A stretch of DNA of 64,000 nucleotides, from the NCBI RefSeq assembly GCF_009647605.1, contig NZ_WJIF01000003.1:1-64000 (forward strand), written 5' to 3'. Position numbers and translations under genes: made by a program. The notes under the pieces are model-generated. The model had not been told where the DNA came from, did not search any database, and saw nothing but the letters and a program-made list of their open reading frames with translations. This stretch comes from Agromyces agglutinans (GTDB lineage Bacteria; Actinomycetota; Actinomycetes; Actinomycetales; Microbacteriaceae). Every line of letters starts with the position of its first letter. Within the stretch, counting starts at the first letter, position 1. Shown piece after piece: positions 12,601-47,654 of this stretch.

Positions 12601-12966
12601 ATGCGCATCGGCAAAGACCTCGTCGCGGCCGCCGCGACCCCGGTCGTCCTCGGCATCCTCGCCGACGGCGAGTCCTACGGGTACGCGATCCTGCAGCGCA
12701 TCGCCGACCTCTCGGGCGGCGAGCTGCAGTGGAGCGACGGCATGCTCTACCCGCTCCTGCACCGACTCGAGCGGCTCGGGCAGGTCGAGTCCGAGTGGCG
12801 CCAGTCCGACGCCGGGCGCCCGCGCAAGCACTACCGCCTGAGCGCCGCGGGCGCAGCGGCACTCGCCGAACAGCGCCGGCAGTGGACCGTCGTGGGCGAC
12901 GTGCTCGGCAAGGTCTGGCCGCACGACGGCGGCCCCCGCGCGAACCTCGCCCTCGGGATGGCCTGA
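12601..12966 (+). CDS. PadR family transcriptional regulator
   Basis: 121 residues. A winged-helix repressor: TPVVLGILADGESYGYAILQRI and GMLYPLLHRLERLGQVESEW are the family's recognition region, followed by GRPRKHYRLSAAG in the wing. The ATG at 12601 has GGAGG 4-5 bases upstream. The next gene starts 4 bases after its stop, forming the usual PadR plus membrane-protein pair. Tandem repeats just upstream suggest autoregulation. Confidence 0.92.
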   Translation: MRIGKDLVAAAATPVVLGILADGESYGYAILQRIADLSGGELQWSDGMLYPLLHRLERLGQVESEWRQSDAGRPRKHYRLSAAGAAALAEQRRQWTVVGDVLGKVWPHDGGPRANLALGMA

Positions 12967-12970
12967 CGCG

Positions 12971-14431
12971 ATGGCGACCGAGCAACCCGGCGCCGAGGCA
13001 TCCGGCACCGACGTCACCGGCACCCACGCGAACGGCATCGACACGACCGGCATCGACGCCCTCGTCGCGTCGTGGCGCACCTGGATCGAGCAGCGCGACG
13101 CGATCGCGCCGGCCGACGTCGACGAGCTCGAGGGCCACCTCCGCGACCAGGTCGACGACCTGCTCGGCCGCGGCCTCTCCGACGACGAGGCATTCCTCGT
13201 CGCGGTCAAGCGCCTCGGCCGCGTCGACGACCTCGCCCGTGAATACGCCCGCGAGCACTCCGAGCGGCTGTGGAAGCAACTGGTGCTCGGCGACGGCTCC
13301 CCCAGCGGCGCCGCGGTCGGCAGCGGCGCGGGAACGGGTCGCCGCCGCGCCGCAGGACTCGCGGTCGCGCTGGGGCTCGGCGTGGCCGCCGGTCTCGCCG
13401 TCAAGCTGCCCGAGCTCTTCGGCGTCGATGCGCCCCGCGACCTCTCCTTCTACCTGCGCAACGCGGCCCTGCTCGTGCTGCCGTTCCTCGCCGCGTACTT
13501 CGCGTGGCGCCGGCGCCTCGACGCGGTGCCGATCGCGGTGGTCGCCGGCGGCTTCGCGGTGTTCGCGATCGCCCTGAACGCGTACCCGTTCGACCCCGAC
13601 GTCTCGAGCCTCGCGGCGACCGAGCTGCTGGCGGCGATCCACTCGATCGTCGCGCTGTGGCTGATCGTCGGCGTCGCGTACACGGGCGGCGACTGGCGGC
13701 GCGACGCATCGCGTATGGACTTCGTCAGGTTCAGCGGCGAGTGGTTCGTCTACTACCTGCTGCTCGCCCTCGGCGGCGGGGCGCTCTCGGCGCTGACCAT
13801 CGGGGTGTTCGCGTCGATCGGCGTCGATGTCTCCTGGTTCGTGTTCGAGTGGGTGCTGCCCTGCGGCGCCGCCGGTGCGGTGCTCGTCGCCGCCTGGCTC
13901 GTCGAGGCGAAGCAGCGGGTCATCGAGAACATCGCGCCGGTGCTCACCAAGGTGTTCACACCGCTGATGACGGCGATGATGCTCGCGCTCATCGTCGCGG
14001 CCCTCGTGCAGTGGAACCTCGTCGACGTCAGCCGCGACCTCCTGATCGCGTTCGATGTCGTGCTCGTCGTGGTCGTGGCCCTGCTCGTGTACTCCATCTC
14101 GGCGCGCGACCCGCTGCAGGCGCCCGGCTGGTTCGACCGGTTGCAGGTGCTCATGCTCGCCAGTGCGCTCGTCGTCGACGTGATCGTGCTCATCGCGATG
14201 CTCGGCCGCACCGGCGAATTCGGCTTCAGCCCGAACAAGACCGCCTCGCTGGGGCTCAACCTGATCCTCGCGGCGAACCTCGTCTGGGCCCTGCGCCTGC
14301 AGGTCGGTTTCGTGCGCGGCCGACTGCCGTTCGCCGCGGTCGAGCGCTGGCAGACCGCGTACCTGCCGGTGTACCTCGCCTGGGCGGCGTTCGTGGCGCT
14401 CGCGTTCCCGCCGTTGTTCGGCTTCGCCTGA
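12971..14431 (+). CDS. membrane protein with N-terminal permease-prefix domain
   Basis: 486 residues. The N-terminus is low-complexity Gly/Thr (about 1-30), then a soluble helical domain of about 75 residues (ELEGHLRDQVDDLLGRGLSDDEAFLVAVKRLGRVDDLAREYAREH) resembling the permease-prefix/HAAS domain found next to PadR regulators. About 10-11 hydrophobic segments follow (RRAAGLAVALGLGVAAGLAVKL onward). No enzyme motif was seen. It is translationally close to padR (4-base gap), so the pair probably forms a regulated membrane-stress or export unit; the actual activity is unknown. Confidence 0.82.
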   Translation: MATEQPGAEASGTDVTGTHANGIDTTGIDALVASWRTWIEQRDAIAPADVDELEGHLRDQVDDLLGRGLSDDEAFLVAVKRLGRVDDLAREYAREHSERLWKQLVLGDGSPSGAAVGSGAGTGRRRAAGLAVALGLGVAAGLAVKLPELFGVDAPRDLSFYLRNAALLVLPFLAAYFAWRRRLDAVPIAVVAGGFAVFAIALNAYPFDPDVSSLAATELLAAIHSIVALWLIVGVAYTGGDWRRDASRMDFVRFSGEWFVYYLLLALGGGALSALTIGVFASIGVDVSWFVFEWVLPCGAAGAVLVAAWLVEAKQRVIENIAPVLTKVFTPLMTAMMLALIVAALVQWNLVDVSRDLLIAFDVVLVVVVALLVYSISARDPLQAPGWFDRLQVLMLASALVVDVIVLIAMLGRTGEFGFSPNKTASLGLNLILAANLVWALRLQVGFVRGRLPFAAVERWQTAYLPVYLAWAAFVALAFPPLFGFA

Positions 14432-14519: not shown

Positions 14520-14576
14520 CGAACGGACGCCAGCTGCGCCGATCGGGGACCCGCCGCCACGACTGGCGTCCGTTCG
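14520..14576. repeat. hairpin element, family 1, copy 1
   Basis: CGAACGGACGCCAG (14520-14533) and its perfect reverse complement (14563-14576) flank a 29-base loop. It lies between the stop of the membrane-protein gene and the stop of the DUF559 gene, so it may also act as a terminator. A second copy with the same arms and a different loop lies on the other side of the DUF559 gene at 15607-15667. Confidence 0.85.
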
Positions 14577-14596
14577 TTGCGGCGCGTGCAGGGCGG

Positions 14597-15484
14597 TCAC
14601 GCCCGGGCGGCCTCGAAGGCACGACCGACCGCGGCGAGCACCTCCCGATCGGACATCCGGCCCGAGAGCCGCACGACGATCCATCCCGCCGCGGCCAGCG
14701 AGTTGTACCGGTCGAGGTCCCGGGCCCACTGGGTGGCATCCGTACGGTGGTGGTCGCCCTCATACTCGAGCAGCACGCGCTCCGCCCGGAACACGAGGTC
14801 GCCGCGGAACACCCGACCGTTCGCGAGGCGGATCCGGCCGTTCGGCTCCGGCTCACGGTACCCGGCCCGCGTGACCAGCAGACGCAGTCTCGTCTCGCGC
14901 GGGGAGTACACATCGGCACGGATGAGCCCGCGAGCCGCGCGGAGGTCGCGCGCTCCCCGCCGCCACGCGTGCGCGAGGACCGCGGCGTCGATCTCCTCGA
15001 TGGCGGCCAGCCGGTACGGAAGCCCGATGAGTCGGTCACCCGCGGCGACGAGGTCGTCGATTCCGACCAGTCCGCAGAGCCCGATCCAAGCCGCGATCGG
15101 GCCGACGACCCTCACGCCGTTGATCGACCGCGTCTCGACCGGCCGCTCGGTGGTGTGACCGACCACCCGATCGCTCCTCGGCGCTCGTCCGCCGTCGAGC
15201 GCGACGACGTGCAGGCGGGTATCACGAGCGAGACTCGCGGGGAGCGGCAGCCCCCAGATCGAGGCGGCTGTCGGCCCGGCGAATGCCTGCGAGACCGGCA
15301 TACCCCGCGCGTAGGCGCGGGCGAGTTCCAGCGTCGACGGCGGCGTCGACCGAGGCATCCGGATGCCTCGGAACGGAGCGACGAGGTCGGGTGCCCGCAG
15401 TCGATGCGGTGGCACCCCGAGACCGAGTGCCTCGGCGACGGCGAATGGGCGACCGGTGATCGAATGGGGCAGTCTCGTCGGCAT
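14597..15484 (-). CDS. DUF559 restriction-endonuclease-like protein
   Basis: 295 residues from ATG 15484. The N-terminal half (about 1-190) looks like the helical part annotated as AbiEi-type antitoxin domain in related proteins (QAFAGPTAASIWGLPLP). The C-terminal about 100 residues carry the Vsr-like DUF559 core: FRGDLVF with Asp229, LLEYEGDHHRTD with Glu240/Glu242/Asp244, then RDLDRYNSLAAAGWIVVRLS. These residues fit a PD-(D/E)XK nuclease centre. No clear ribosome site precedes the start, and a GTG about 11 codons upstream is possible. A copy of the same hairpin element lies on each side. No toxin partner is adjacent, so the AbiEi label should not be taken as function. Confidence 0.8.
   Translation of the reverse strand: MPTRLPHSITGRPFAVAEALGLGVPPHRLRAPDLVAPFRGIRMPRSTPPSTLELARAYARGMPVSQAFAGPTAASIWGLPLPASLARDTRLHVVALDGGRAPRSDRVVGHTTERPVETRSINGVRVVGPIAAWIGLCGLVGIDDLVAAGDRLIGLPYRLAAIEEIDAAVLAHAWRRGARDLRAARGLIRADVYSPRETRLRLLVTRAGYREPEPNGRIRLANGRVFRGDLVFRAERVLLEYEGDHHRTDATQWARDLDRYNSLAAAGWIVVRLSGRMSDREVLAAVGRAFEAARA
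15350..15371. repeat. perfect 22-bp palindrome made of the iterated word
   Basis: The word GGCATCC is followed directly by its reverse complement GGATGCC, with CCGA/TCGG continuing the symmetry on both sides. It lies inside the DUF559 coding sequence near codon 40 and could bind a dimeric protein. Confidence 0.7.
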
Positions 15485-15800
15485 CGACGCAGCATCGCTC
15501 AGCCGCAAGCCCACCGCGCCCGGGGTGCTCTGGTGACCGGGCGCGCATGCCCGATCGAACCCTGTGCAGGAGTGCTCGCTCACCCTGACATCCGGGCCGC
15601 TCCGACCGCGAACGGACGCCAGACGCGCCTCGGAAGGCCATTCGCATGCATCTGGGGTCCGTTCGCGAGGGAATAACCGGGCGCATTTCGGCGCGACCCG
15701 ATCGTTCGAGACACGAACATGGGCAGCCATGCGCGGCTGCCAGAGAATTTTCGGGGTTCTTCCGTTTGCGGCATCCGTCGCACCGTGTGAGCATCGAGGC
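15485..15800. other. 316-base intergenic region between DUF559 gene and ramB-like gene
   Basis: Divergent spacer. It contains hairpin copy 2 (15607-15667), an A/T-richer segment AGAGAATTTTCGGGG near 15742-15756 that may be part of the ramB-like promoter, and TTCCGTTTGCGG near 15761. No open frame in it has a credible start or family match. Confidence 0.6.
15607..15667. repeat. hairpin element, family 1, copy 2
   Basis: A 17-base arm starting CGCGAACGGACGCCAG (15607-15623) pairs with 15651-15667 with a single mismatch, around a 27-base loop. The arms match copy 1 (14520-14576) but the loop sequence does not, so the arms are what is conserved. Confidence 0.85.
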
Positions 15801-17309
15801 ATGGTCACCGCCGATCGATCCGGCCCCGCATCCCTCGCGGCGGCGCTCGCCGCGTCCGCCGACGAGACGGATGCCTCGGCCACGGTCGACGCGCTCACCC
15901 TCGGCCGGCGCATCCGCGACCGGCGCACCGCGCGCGGCATGACGCTCGGCGAGCTCGCGCAGGCGATCGACCGGGCGCCGAGCCAGGTCAGCGCAATCGA
16001 GAACGGCAAGCGCGAGCCGCGGCTGTCGATGCTGCGCACCATCGCGCTGGCGCTCGGCACCACGGTCGACGAACTGCTGCGACCGGATGCCCCGTCGGAG
16101 CGCGCCGCCCTCGAGATCGCGGTCGAACGCGCGCAGCGCGGACCGGTGTTCCAGGCGCTCGGGCTCGAGCCGTTCCGCGTGGCGAAGTCCATGAGCGACC
16201 AGACGCTCGCGACGATCCTCGCGCTGCACCACGAGATCGACCGCCTGCACCGCGAACGCGCGGCGACGCCCGAGGAGGCGCGGCGGGCCAACGCCGAGCT
16301 GCGCGCCGACATGCGGGCGCGCGACAACTTCGAGCCCGAGCTCGAGCGGCAGGCGGCAGCCCTCCTCGAGGCCGTCGGGTACGCGGGCGGCCCGGTCTCG
16401 CACCAGGTGGTCGCCGACCTCGCCGCCCATCTCGGGTTCTCGCTGCACTACGTCTCCGACCTGCCGCACTCGACCCGGTCGGTGACCGACAAGCGCCACG
16501 GTCGCATCTACCTGCCGACCGCCCAGTCCCCCTCGCGCGATTCGCGCTCGCCGATCCTGCAGGCGCTCGCCTCGCAGGTGCTGGGCCACGAGGAGCCGGC
16601 GAACTACGGCGACTTCCTGCGACAGCGCATCGAGACGAACTACCTCACCGCCGCGATCCTGCTCCCCGAGCAGGCCGCCGTGCGCTACCTGACCGAGGCG
16701 AAGAACCTGCGCCGCATCTCGATGGAGGAGCTCCGCGACCACTTCGCGGTCTCGTACGAGACCGCCGCGCACCGGTTCACGAACCTCGCGACCGCACGGC
16801 TCGGCATCCCCGTGCACTTCGTGAAGGTGCACGAGTCGGGCACGATCATCAAGGCGTACGAGAACGACCGGGTGAAGTTCCCCGCCGACGCACTGGGCGC
16901 CGTCGAGGGCACGACGATGTGCCGCAACTGGACGGCCCGCACGGTCTTCGACGTCGAGGACCGCTTCAGCCCCTGGTACCAGTACACCGACACGCCCTCG
17001 GGCACGTTCTGGTGCACCTCCCGCATCGAGAAGGCCAAGGAGGGCGAGTACTCGGTGTCGGTCGGCGTGCCGTTCGAGCACGTGAAGTGGTTCCGCGGGC
17101 GCGAGACACCGCATCGTGCGGTTTCACGCTGCCCCGATCCGTCGTGCTGCCAGGCGCCAGCCGGGCTGGCCGAGAAATGGGCGGATGCCTCGTGGCCGGC
17201 CGCTCGCACCCCCACGAGCCTGCTCGCGGCACTGCCGACGGGCACGTTCCCGGGCGTCGACCAGACCGAGGTGTTCCAGTTCCTCGAGGCGCACGCGCCG
17301 GTCGGGTGA
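15801..17309 (+). CDS. ramB: RamB-like short-chain fatty acid/acetate regulator (XRE plus IrrE-like domain)
   Basis: 502 residues. An XRE helix-turn-helix (about 34-92, GMTLGELAQAIDRAPSQVSAIENGKREPRLSML) is followed by a long linker and the IrrE/DUF955-like domain, then the DUF2083 C-terminal region with Cys-rich CPDPSCCQAPAG. The expected HExxH is replaced by LGHEEPANYGDFLRQRIETNYLTAA, as in RamB proteins. In Corynebacterium RamB represses aceA, aceB and acetate-activation genes, so the aceBA operon at 2757-5836 is a likely target here. It starts at ATG 15801 with GAGG close upstream. Its stop is 3 bases from a convergent gene. Confidence 0.88.
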   Translation: MVTADRSGPASLAAALAASADETDASATVDALTLGRRIRDRRTARGMTLGELAQAIDRAPSQVSAIENGKREPRLSMLRTIALALGTTVDELLRPDAPSERAALEIAVERAQRGPVFQALGLEPFRVAKSMSDQTLATILALHHEIDRLHRERAATPEEARRANAELRADMRARDNFEPELERQAAALLEAVGYAGGPVSHQVVADLAAHLGFSLHYVSDLPHSTRSVTDKRHGRIYLPTAQSPSRDSRSPILQALASQVLGHEEPANYGDFLRQRIETNYLTAAILLPEQAAVRYLTEAKNLRRISMEELRDHFAVSYETAAHRFTNLATARLGIPVHFVKVHESGTIIKAYENDRVKFPADALGAVEGTTMCRNWTARTVFDVEDRFSPWYQYTDTPSGTFWCTSRIEKAKEGEYSVSVGVPFEHVKWFRGRETPHRAVSRCPDPSCCQAPAGLAEKWADASWPAARTPTSLLAALPTGTFPGVDQTEVFQFLEAHAPVG

Positions 17310-39723: not shown

Positions 39724-39743
39724 CGCACGCAGAACCCGCGACC

Positions 39744-39774
39744 GAGCGGATGCCCCGGCGGGGGGCATCCGCTC
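39744..39774 (+). terminator. hairpin terminator after gabD
   Basis: A perfect 13-bp stem (39744-39756 with 39762-39774) closes a 5-base loop, 20 bases past the gabD stop and before the convergent small gene. Arms contain GGATGCC/GGCATCC. Probably works in both directions. Confidence 0.8.
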
Positions 39775-39799
39775 GTTGCATCTCACCCGCCCGACCGCG

Positions 39800-47524: not shown

Positions 47525-47550
47525 CGGGCCGACCGGACGAGTGAACCGAC

Positions 47551-47582
47551 CGGATGCCGCGGGCGCCTGCCCGCGGCATCCG
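47551..47582 (+). terminator. hairpin after the phytase/GDPD gene
   Basis: A perfect 14-bp stem (47551-47564 with 47569-47582) closes a GCCT tetraloop, 27 bases past the stop. Arms begin with GGATGCC and end with GGCATCC. Confidence 0.8.
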
Positions 47583-47654
47583 TCGCGTCAGCGCGCCCGC
47601 GCCGACGTCGGATCCGCTCGCGAGGATTCCGCGCCCGCTCGATAGGATCCGAGG

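Follow-up and report, generated by a model that had tools for sequence, protein, structure and literature searches.

Palindromes with matching arms flank genes for a predicted Vsr-like nuclease in Agromyces agglutinans and other actinobacteria

Introduction

The closest described counterparts of the locus that we report here are the REP sequences and the RAYT enzymes that accompany them. RAYT genes are reported to carry repeats on both sides, co-evolve with them, evolve faster than their neighbors, and have cognate copies dispersed in the genome (PMC2817692). The enzymes belong to the HUH/Y1 tyrosine transposases of the IS200/IS605 group; REPs measure 20–40 bp, and a GTAG or CGTC tag marks one end of most (PMC3733652). 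The AbiEi family of proteins also bears on this locus, and its members are reported to bind inverted repeats (PMC7319586).

We studied 64,000 nucleotides of Agromyces agglutinans DNA (assembly GCF_009647605.1, contig NZ_WJIF01000003.1, positions 1 to 64,000), hereafter called the window. An initial annotation, made from the sequence alone, pointed to one nuclease-like gene lying between two hairpins. Our search of the open full-text literature found nothing that links DUF559, MTES_1575, or AbiEi-like nucleases with dispersed palindromes; subscription papers and preprints were outside its scope and earlier publication is possible.

Results

Two palindromes with the same arms flank a gene in the window

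The initial annotation had described the same arms as perfect or near-perfect inverted repeats on both sides of one gene, with loops that are free to differ, and both points are borne out. The two palindromes, HP1 and HP2 (Table 1), have the arm sequence CGAACGGACGCCAG with no mismatch in HP1 and one mismatch in the 14-nt core of HP2. Each has a core of 57 nt and the two 29-nt middles are unrelated to each other. HP2 can be extended to 20-nt arms that are 90% complementary. HP1 ends 20 nt past the stop codon of the nuclease gene, and the core of HP2 begins 124 nt ahead of its start codon.

Table 1. Coordinates of the nuclease gene, its neighbors, and the palindromes; positions without a contig prefix are those of the window
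Feature	Coordinates	Strand	Remarks
PadR-type regulator, left neighbor	12601-12966	+	left border of the G201 empty site
Membrane protein by sequence, no Pfam match, left neighbor	12971-14431	+	left border of the G201 empty site
HP1 palindrome, 3' of nuclease gene	14520..14576	.	14-nt perfect arms (14520-14533/14563-14576), 29-nt middle
Nuclease gene, 295 aa	14597..15484	-	predicted AbiEi-antitoxin-like residues 1-189 and predicted Vsr/I-Bth0305I-like nuclease residues 192-295
HP2 palindrome, 5' of nuclease gene	15607..15667	.	core 15609-15665, arms of HP1 (15609-15622/15652-15665)
HTH regulator, weak IrrE-like match, right neighbor	15801..17309	+	right border of the G201 empty site
Solo palindrome	C12:220650-220706		between two codirectional genes
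Solo palindrome	C3:25375-25431		between convergent genes
Solo palindrome	C20:442072-442128		between convergent genes

Folding of both palindromes was better than in all 200 of 200 dinucleotide-preserving shuffles (z –3.70 for HP1 and –5.10 for HP2), and the eight palindromes that were folded were stable. A scan of eight palindrome-bearing loci against Rfam gave no family match. At this high G+C content, simulation gives about five hairpins of such kind per 64 kb. Among 300 first-order Markov simulations of the window, two contained a pair of hairpins with a common 12-nt arm; the real window contains one such pair. A stricter pair test that does not tolerate shifts gave 0 of 100 simulations, but it missed the real HP1/HP2 pair too.

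The gene encodes a predicted Vsr-like nuclease

We modeled the protein with AlphaFold2 from an alignment of 55 homologs taken from the window and the fetched loci (pLDDT 95.1). In the model, residues 194–295 align with I-Bth0305I (3r3p; Z 12.5, 93 residues aligned, rmsd 2.6) in a VIA-align comparison. The nuclease part also matches 3hrl (Z 11.6) and Vsr (1cw0; Z 9.3), with two mitoribosomal proteins (Z 9.5) ranking between these. Residues 1–189 have a modest match to the AbiEi antitoxin 6y8q (Z 8.3, 176 residues aligned, rmsd 6.0), and their match to Rv2827c (1zel; Z 7.0) is under the telling level of the tool. Foldseek alone gave no match at E < 0.001, and the fold assignment is based on the second look with VIA-align. 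The model thus predicts a Vsr-like or I-Bth0305I-like fold with conserved acidic residues and a histidine, preceded by an N-terminal part with a predicted AbiEi-like antitoxin fold. An 'EDxHD' motif belongs to enzymes of the Vsr/I-Bth0305I type, and the order E197, D229, E240, H246, D256 resembles it. In the 55-row alignment D229, E240, H246, and D256 are invariant, and S194, E197, and R201 are conserved in at least 90% of rows. A larger set, where the numbering is 16 higher, comprised 106 sequences: of 110 found, five with unusual lengths were left out, and the window protein was included. In it, conservation reaches 98% or more at every one of the site residues S, E, R, D, E, H, D, and R.

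At E 0.01 the 55 members match six Pfam families, led by MTES_1575 in 41 members and DUF559 in 34, and no Y1 transposase is among the six. The window protein itself scores 20 bits against MTES_1575, where the cut-off is 38.2, and therefore the DUF559/Vsr reading rests on its relatives and the predicted structure. Hence, of the DUF559 nuclease with a Vsr-like core that had been suggested from the sequence, the core agrees with the predicted fold and the DUF559 label holds by way of relatives, but the window protein stays under the MTES_1575 cut-off. One PADLOC AbiEi model matches 24 of the 55 relatives (best E 1.2e-12) and the window protein matches none; the Pfam AbiEi models match two of the 55 members each.

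Homologs at E 1e-10 were found in 144 of the 197 class genomes searched and in 78 of 90 genera. One record with a match was found in the phage collection and three in the plasmid collection. Broken or stop-containing copies of the nuclease gene were seen in G172 (C14:397749-398765), where the fragments adjoin a palindrome matched by the wider search model R2, and also in G157, G169, G195, G196, and G205.

Palindromes are associated with homologous genes

To see how the palindromes are placed elsewhere, we used the best 80 homologs of named genomes, kept from 252 confirmed. A de novo hairpin scan in which no arm was given found 42 hairpins upstream and 34 downstream within 500 bp of these genes; every other 500-bp bin had 0–10, and 6 hairpins were inside genes. 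Palindromes with the same arm on both sides (14 of 18 outer pairs, arms agreeing at 12/14 or more) were found at 29 of the 80 genes. Of 1,381 sham positions, which were taken from the same loci and are not independent because they overlap one another, 4 had such a pair. With arms agreeing at 11/14, the result was 29/80 versus 36/1,381. Hairpins with 15 of 18 pairs were found at 21/80 genes versus 0/1,381 (12/14) or 1/1,381 (11/14) sham positions, and an earlier version of the test (11/14) gave 18/80 versus 1/1,233. At looser settings hairpins were on both sides of 131 of the 1,381 sham positions, and at the stricter setting no hairpin was on either side at 22 of the 80 loci. Matched arms on both sides were also present at 20 of 31 loci in the genus of the window, with the window gene and its paralog counted (11/14, no sham set). 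Class-wide they were present at 17 of 29 loci, 14 of 26 outside the genus, at the same setting and also with no sham set; for this, 30 loci were fetched and one short locus was dropped, and three loci, including that of the window gene, are from the same genus. Thus, measured against sham controls, hairpins cluster at these genes across genera, a pattern that the initial annotation had advised looking for. We are highly confident that these nuclease genes are linked with palindromes that share arms.

The arm sequences are lineage-specific. Arm similarity followed protein similarity (Mantel r 0.41; 0.42 for the N-terminal part and 0.31 for the nuclease), with 0 of 2,000 permutations reaching each value, in a test that used 45 loci chosen for matched arms and that still includes shared ancestry. 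Below about 55% protein identity, arm similarity was down to the level of the most distant pairs (mean 0.68–0.70). A tblastn search of the window protein against loci L014–L054 found homologs in own-genome loci only, which at first resembled a lack of association; we dismissed this because both the arms and the nucleases that go with them are different in other lineages.

Three further features were seen at these loci. Tandem arrays of palindromes with 73–74-nt spacing lie beside the nuclease gene in Arthrobacter/Paenarthrobacter (L068, L075, L081, L089) and Rathayibacter (L057, L092) and recall BIME arrays. In several families a GATCATG stretch is shared by palindromes that otherwise differ; it lies close to their start and is present on one or both sides of the gene (L287–L291, L295, L296, L300, L303, L305). 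In two Agromyces loci (L118, L120) large nested palindromes made of TTGCCCGACTTTCATGAAAGTCGGGCAA adjoin the nuclease gene, and two more hairpins of other sequence lie upstream.

Neighboring genes and an empty site

The HTH regulator to the right of the unit has orthologs that are 79–94% identical in 56 of the 59 other genomes of the genus, and we examined 29 relatives' loci at this gene. One of these, in G201, has an empty site. This genome keeps the order PadR (91% identical), membrane protein (75%), HTH regulator (90%), and the regulator is preceded by a gap of 128 nt (1,369 nt in the window) that has neither a nuclease gene nor such a palindrome in it. No half-site was recognized there by eye. 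Another 27 of the 29 loci are uninformative because the membrane-protein gene is absent from the 1.5 kb upstream. In G187 the two neighbors known from the window enclose a nuclease that is 49% identical and lies between two palindromes sharing other arms; about 2.3 kb of further DNA precedes this unit, and the membrane protein, of which part is present, is 80% and the regulator 90% identical. At one locus, therefore, both palindromes differ along with the nuclease gene.

Among the 16 closest homologs of the same genus (E ≤ 1.8e-72), 13 are on the same contig as the regulator ortholog and no more than 25 kb from it. Thus, the nuclease gene is mainly vertically inherited, and because of this and the G187 version between the same neighbors, the empty site in G201 may have arisen by loss. 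The initial annotation had proposed that the whole 1.15-kb unit could be mobile and had advised looking for empty sites. One such site exists, which speaks for the proposal, whereas the stability beside one regulator and the G187 version in place speak against it. In our searches we found neither an arm that was widespread with no link to these genes nor a complete lack of empty sites, either of which had been named as fatal to the idea. The dispersed palindromes described below are better candidates for a spreading element than the 1.15-kb unit.

Solo palindromes in Agromyces

A search of the 3.9-Mb genome with model R1, built on five of its own copies, gave only five strong places at 71–77 bits, with the next at 24 bits. 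These are HP1 (73.3 bits), HP2 (72.9 bits), both of which are among the sequences used to build R1, and three solo copies (Table 1). All five have a geometry of 14+29+14. The solo copies are at least 13 kb from either nuclease homolog, the closest being the paralog at about 13.6 kb from the C12 copy. This paralog is 51% identical to the window nuclease and is bracketed by two palindromes with different arms, CGAGTGTCCAGTT, of which there is one more solo copy.

No compensatory changes were found within the five own palindromes alone. Covariation was strong across 18 R2 rows, which are genus-wide and include relatives, and is favored toward paired stems because most of these rows were found by a structure model. 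R2 has matches in 57 of 60 genomes of the genus, a count made with no shuffled control by a model that favors one arm type. It also calls short G+C-rich hairpins in the window (39740–39778, 47544–47588, and others), which we set aside as not of this family, and therefore part of these genus-wide matches may be ordinary hairpins. G189 has 57 R2 strand-hits, yet no nuclease homolog at E 1e-5, and no nuclease was found in nine of its loci, eight chosen for their palindromes and one for the HTH gene (L372–L379, L383); as it stands, this is a counter-example. The G189 palindromes are of the CGA[AG]CGGTCGC type, and G188 has the same arm type together with a nuclease.

HP4 is a solo palindrome in the gap that separates livF from a binding-protein gene convergent with it. 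We compared this gap in the 28 relatives that have both genes; their binding protein is 88–94% identical in 13 and 57–65% identical in 15 (one further locus had no binding protein). An R1 match at E < 0.01 was found in one of them, with other arms. By eye, the gap (L252–L279, L281; 29 same-genus loci) holds differing palindromes in several species and looks like a hot spot.

Dispersed copies in Curtobacterium and relatives

Through the loci we reached 17 genomes (14 Curtobacterium, two Rathayibacter, one Plantibacter). The Curtobacterium-type arm occurs in 16 of these with 0–53 forward and 0–53 reverse matches per genome, and the 14 Curtobacterium genomes have 2–53 forward copies each. As a control, the reversed pattern gave 0–1 and 0–2 matches in the 17 genomes. 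In 60 stretches around arm matches from three genomes, 63 of 64 palindromes have an arm spacing of 29 nt. Pairwise identity among 62 of these palindromes is 86% for the arms and, with each pair of loops taken in its better orientation, 46% for the 11-nt loops. Within the 18-nt arm core we counted 36 mirrored changes, 23 of them at one position, compared with a mean of 11.0 when the right arms were shuffled (0 of 1,000 shuffles reached 36). The same core has 85 one-sided and 12 unlike changes, and thus symmetry is above chance but not strict, with pairing partly kept.

Placement relative to genes, by a simple G+C-based gene caller, was convergent for 27 of the 62 palindromes, tandem for 12, and divergent for 3; 6 overlapped a called ORF and 14 were unplaced. 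In three within-genome pairs the loops agree at 10 or more of their 11 letters; column shuffling gave 0.48 such pairs on average, and 5 of 500 shuffles reached three. Two of these, L313/L315 and L340/L342, have shared loops and unrelated flanks, as copying would give. The third, L316/L318, is part of a longer duplicated stretch. By eye, no target-site duplication was noticed in the palindrome flanks.

Discussion

Toward one explanation we lean, as probable though far from secure: that these loci form a large actinobacterial family of cognate pairs, each with an AbiEi-like/Vsr-fold nuclease and flanking and scattered palindromes of about 45–70 nt, and that the palindromes are mobilized as follows. 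The AbiEi-like N-terminal part would bind the palindrome arms as a dimer, and the Vsr-like domain would nick the palindrome or its extruded or single-stranded hairpin. The nick would start copying of palindromes to new, mostly intergenic sites. The palindromes would then be miniature elements that are non-autonomous, with the gene, retained between two copies, as their resident helper. A dimer bound to two half-sites would suit the fixed geometry and free loop, and so would an extruded hairpin. Here the nuclease would be the natural cutter and the AbiEi-like part the natural reader of the arms, because relatives are reported to bind inverted repeats (PMC7319586). The data show two-sided flanking by palindromes of one arm type, separate arm families for the gene lineages, scattered solo copies of fixed geometry, an excess of mirrored arm changes over shuffling, conserved site residues, and presence or absence at matching sites. 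Binding, cutting, copying, and the direction of cause are what we infer, and mobilization of palindromes by the nuclease is our favored but unproven mechanism. PD-(D/E)XK nucleases are not known to transpose alone. Also counted against the mechanism are the palindrome-rich G189 with no detectable nuclease, the many one-sided arm changes, the mainly vertical inheritance of the gene, the single empty site among 29 loci, the 22 of 80 loci with no hairpin at the stricter setting, the loss of arm likeness below about 55% protein identity, and the fact that no target duplication was noticed by eye. Moreover, the loops are mostly unrelated, which is unlike fresh copies and would count against copying; judged from sequence, the case for copying is thin and consists of the two within-genome pairs whose loops match while their flanks are unrelated.

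The palindromes could instead be operators or marker sites of the AbiEi-like protein, with the flanking copies serving autoregulation and the solo copies forming an immobile regulon or chromosome-organizing set. AbiEi antitoxins are reported to bind inverted repeats in promoters and to autoregulate (PMC7319586), one palindrome is upstream of the gene, and both the PADLOC matches (24/55) and the alignment of the predicted N-terminal part with 6y8q and 1zel fit with this. However, the second copy is downstream of the gene, solo copies are mostly between convergent genes (27/62, versus 3 divergent) rather than at promoters, the arms vary between lineages, and a nuclease domain with conserved site residues is left unexplained, so that we regard this reading as unlikely, if worth keeping in mind. 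We think it less probable still that the nuclease cuts related chromosome sequence while the palindrome marks or protects resident sites, the unit being spread or kept by cut-and-repair. The homing endonuclease I-Bth0305I is the best structural match (Z 12.5) and G201 offers one empty site in an orthologous interval, but that site has no half-site recognizable by eye, the gene is rarely at new places in close relatives (13/16 stay within 25 kb of the same neighbor), and many solo palindromes have no gene.

The likelihood that the palindromes are terminators or mRNA-stabilizing hairpins that lie beside these genes by accident is small. Many solo copies are at the 3' ends of genes and the eight folded palindromes are stable, as this would predict; yet hairpins are upstream as well as downstream (42 versus 34), the same arms are on both sides and at dispersed sites with a fixed spacing, the eight loci scanned have no Rfam match, and the middles in the window family are 29 nt long. 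Chance in a genome of 70% G+C accounts for some hairpins, given about five per 64 kb in simulation and hairpins on both sides of 131/1,381 sham positions at looser settings. Nonetheless, matched arms are rare at sham positions and reversed patterns gave 0–2 matches in 17 genomes; these controls refute composition as the explanation and leave it almost no probability.

Compared with described systems, the pairs proposed here are most like REP/REPIN sequences with RAYTs ('REPtrons'), in which a fast-evolving enzyme gene has palindromes on both sides and dispersed intergenic copies (PMC2817692, PMC3733652). The same sources describe enzyme lineages with their own repeat, palindromes maintained through paired changes, and repeats in genomes that have no enzyme gene. 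The traits reported for RAYTs, co-evolution with the repeat and faster change than the neighbors among them, largely recur here. The likeness in logic to REP/RAYT pairs suggested by the initial annotation is therefore apt with regard to two-sided flanking, an own repeat per lineage, and dispersed copies. A gene flanked by two repeats with dispersed copies is seen here too, but not everywhere (29/80, 20/31, 17/29). By contrast with HUH/Y1 enzymes, the protein here has a predicted Vsr-like fold and AbiEi-like part, and it is not a member of the REP/RAYT group because it is not an HUH transposase. The palindromes also differ in being symmetric, about 45–70 nt long, and with no such tag noticed: by reading, no GTAG or CGTC tag is common to the five symmetric 57-nt palindromes of A. 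agglutinans and none was noticed at the ends of the Curtobacterium copies.

The N-terminal part resembles AbiE type IV toxin-antitoxin systems in that residues 1–189 of the model align with AbiEi 6y8q and Rv2827c 1zel. Unlike in AbiE, the part here is fused to a nuclease, and the repeats flank the gene on either side and are scattered elsewhere too. The AbiEii toxin (DUF1814 nucleotidyltransferase) is absent from the three neighboring proteins scanned in the window, and for this reason the locus is not an AbiE operon. With Vsr and I-Bth0305I the protein shares the predicted nuclease fold (3r3p, 3hrl, 1cw0); the link to dispersed palindromes sets it apart, and no intron or intein host was seen at the window locus. 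MITEs are small non-coding repeats that share sequence with a gene-bearing unit, the parental insertion sequence, and in this the palindromes are alike. They differ in that the whole repeat is one palindrome, the gene lies between complete repeats rather than terminal halves, and no target-site duplication was noticed by eye.

It is possible, although we hold this with some doubt, that Actinomycetes have a second, independently evolved REP/RAYT-like class of mobile DNA, in which an AbiEi-like/Vsr-type nuclease specific for its own palindrome disperses it; this would imply that a Vsr-type nick, rather than tyrosine or DDE chemistry, begins the transposition or copying reaction. The nuclease family is very common in actinobacteria (144/197 genomes), and the name alone is no ground for calling these genes toxin-antitoxin or defense genes. 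If each gene has a cognate dispersed palindrome, then its function would be directly testable in binding and cleavage assays with a ready substrate and mismatched controls. If the mechanism is true, the known routes for the spread of short palindromes in bacteria would gain one that is driven by a nuclease. The arrangement of palindromes and nuclease genes in many actinobacteria may be an unrecognized kind of mobile DNA and looks like an independent counterpart of REP/RAYT.
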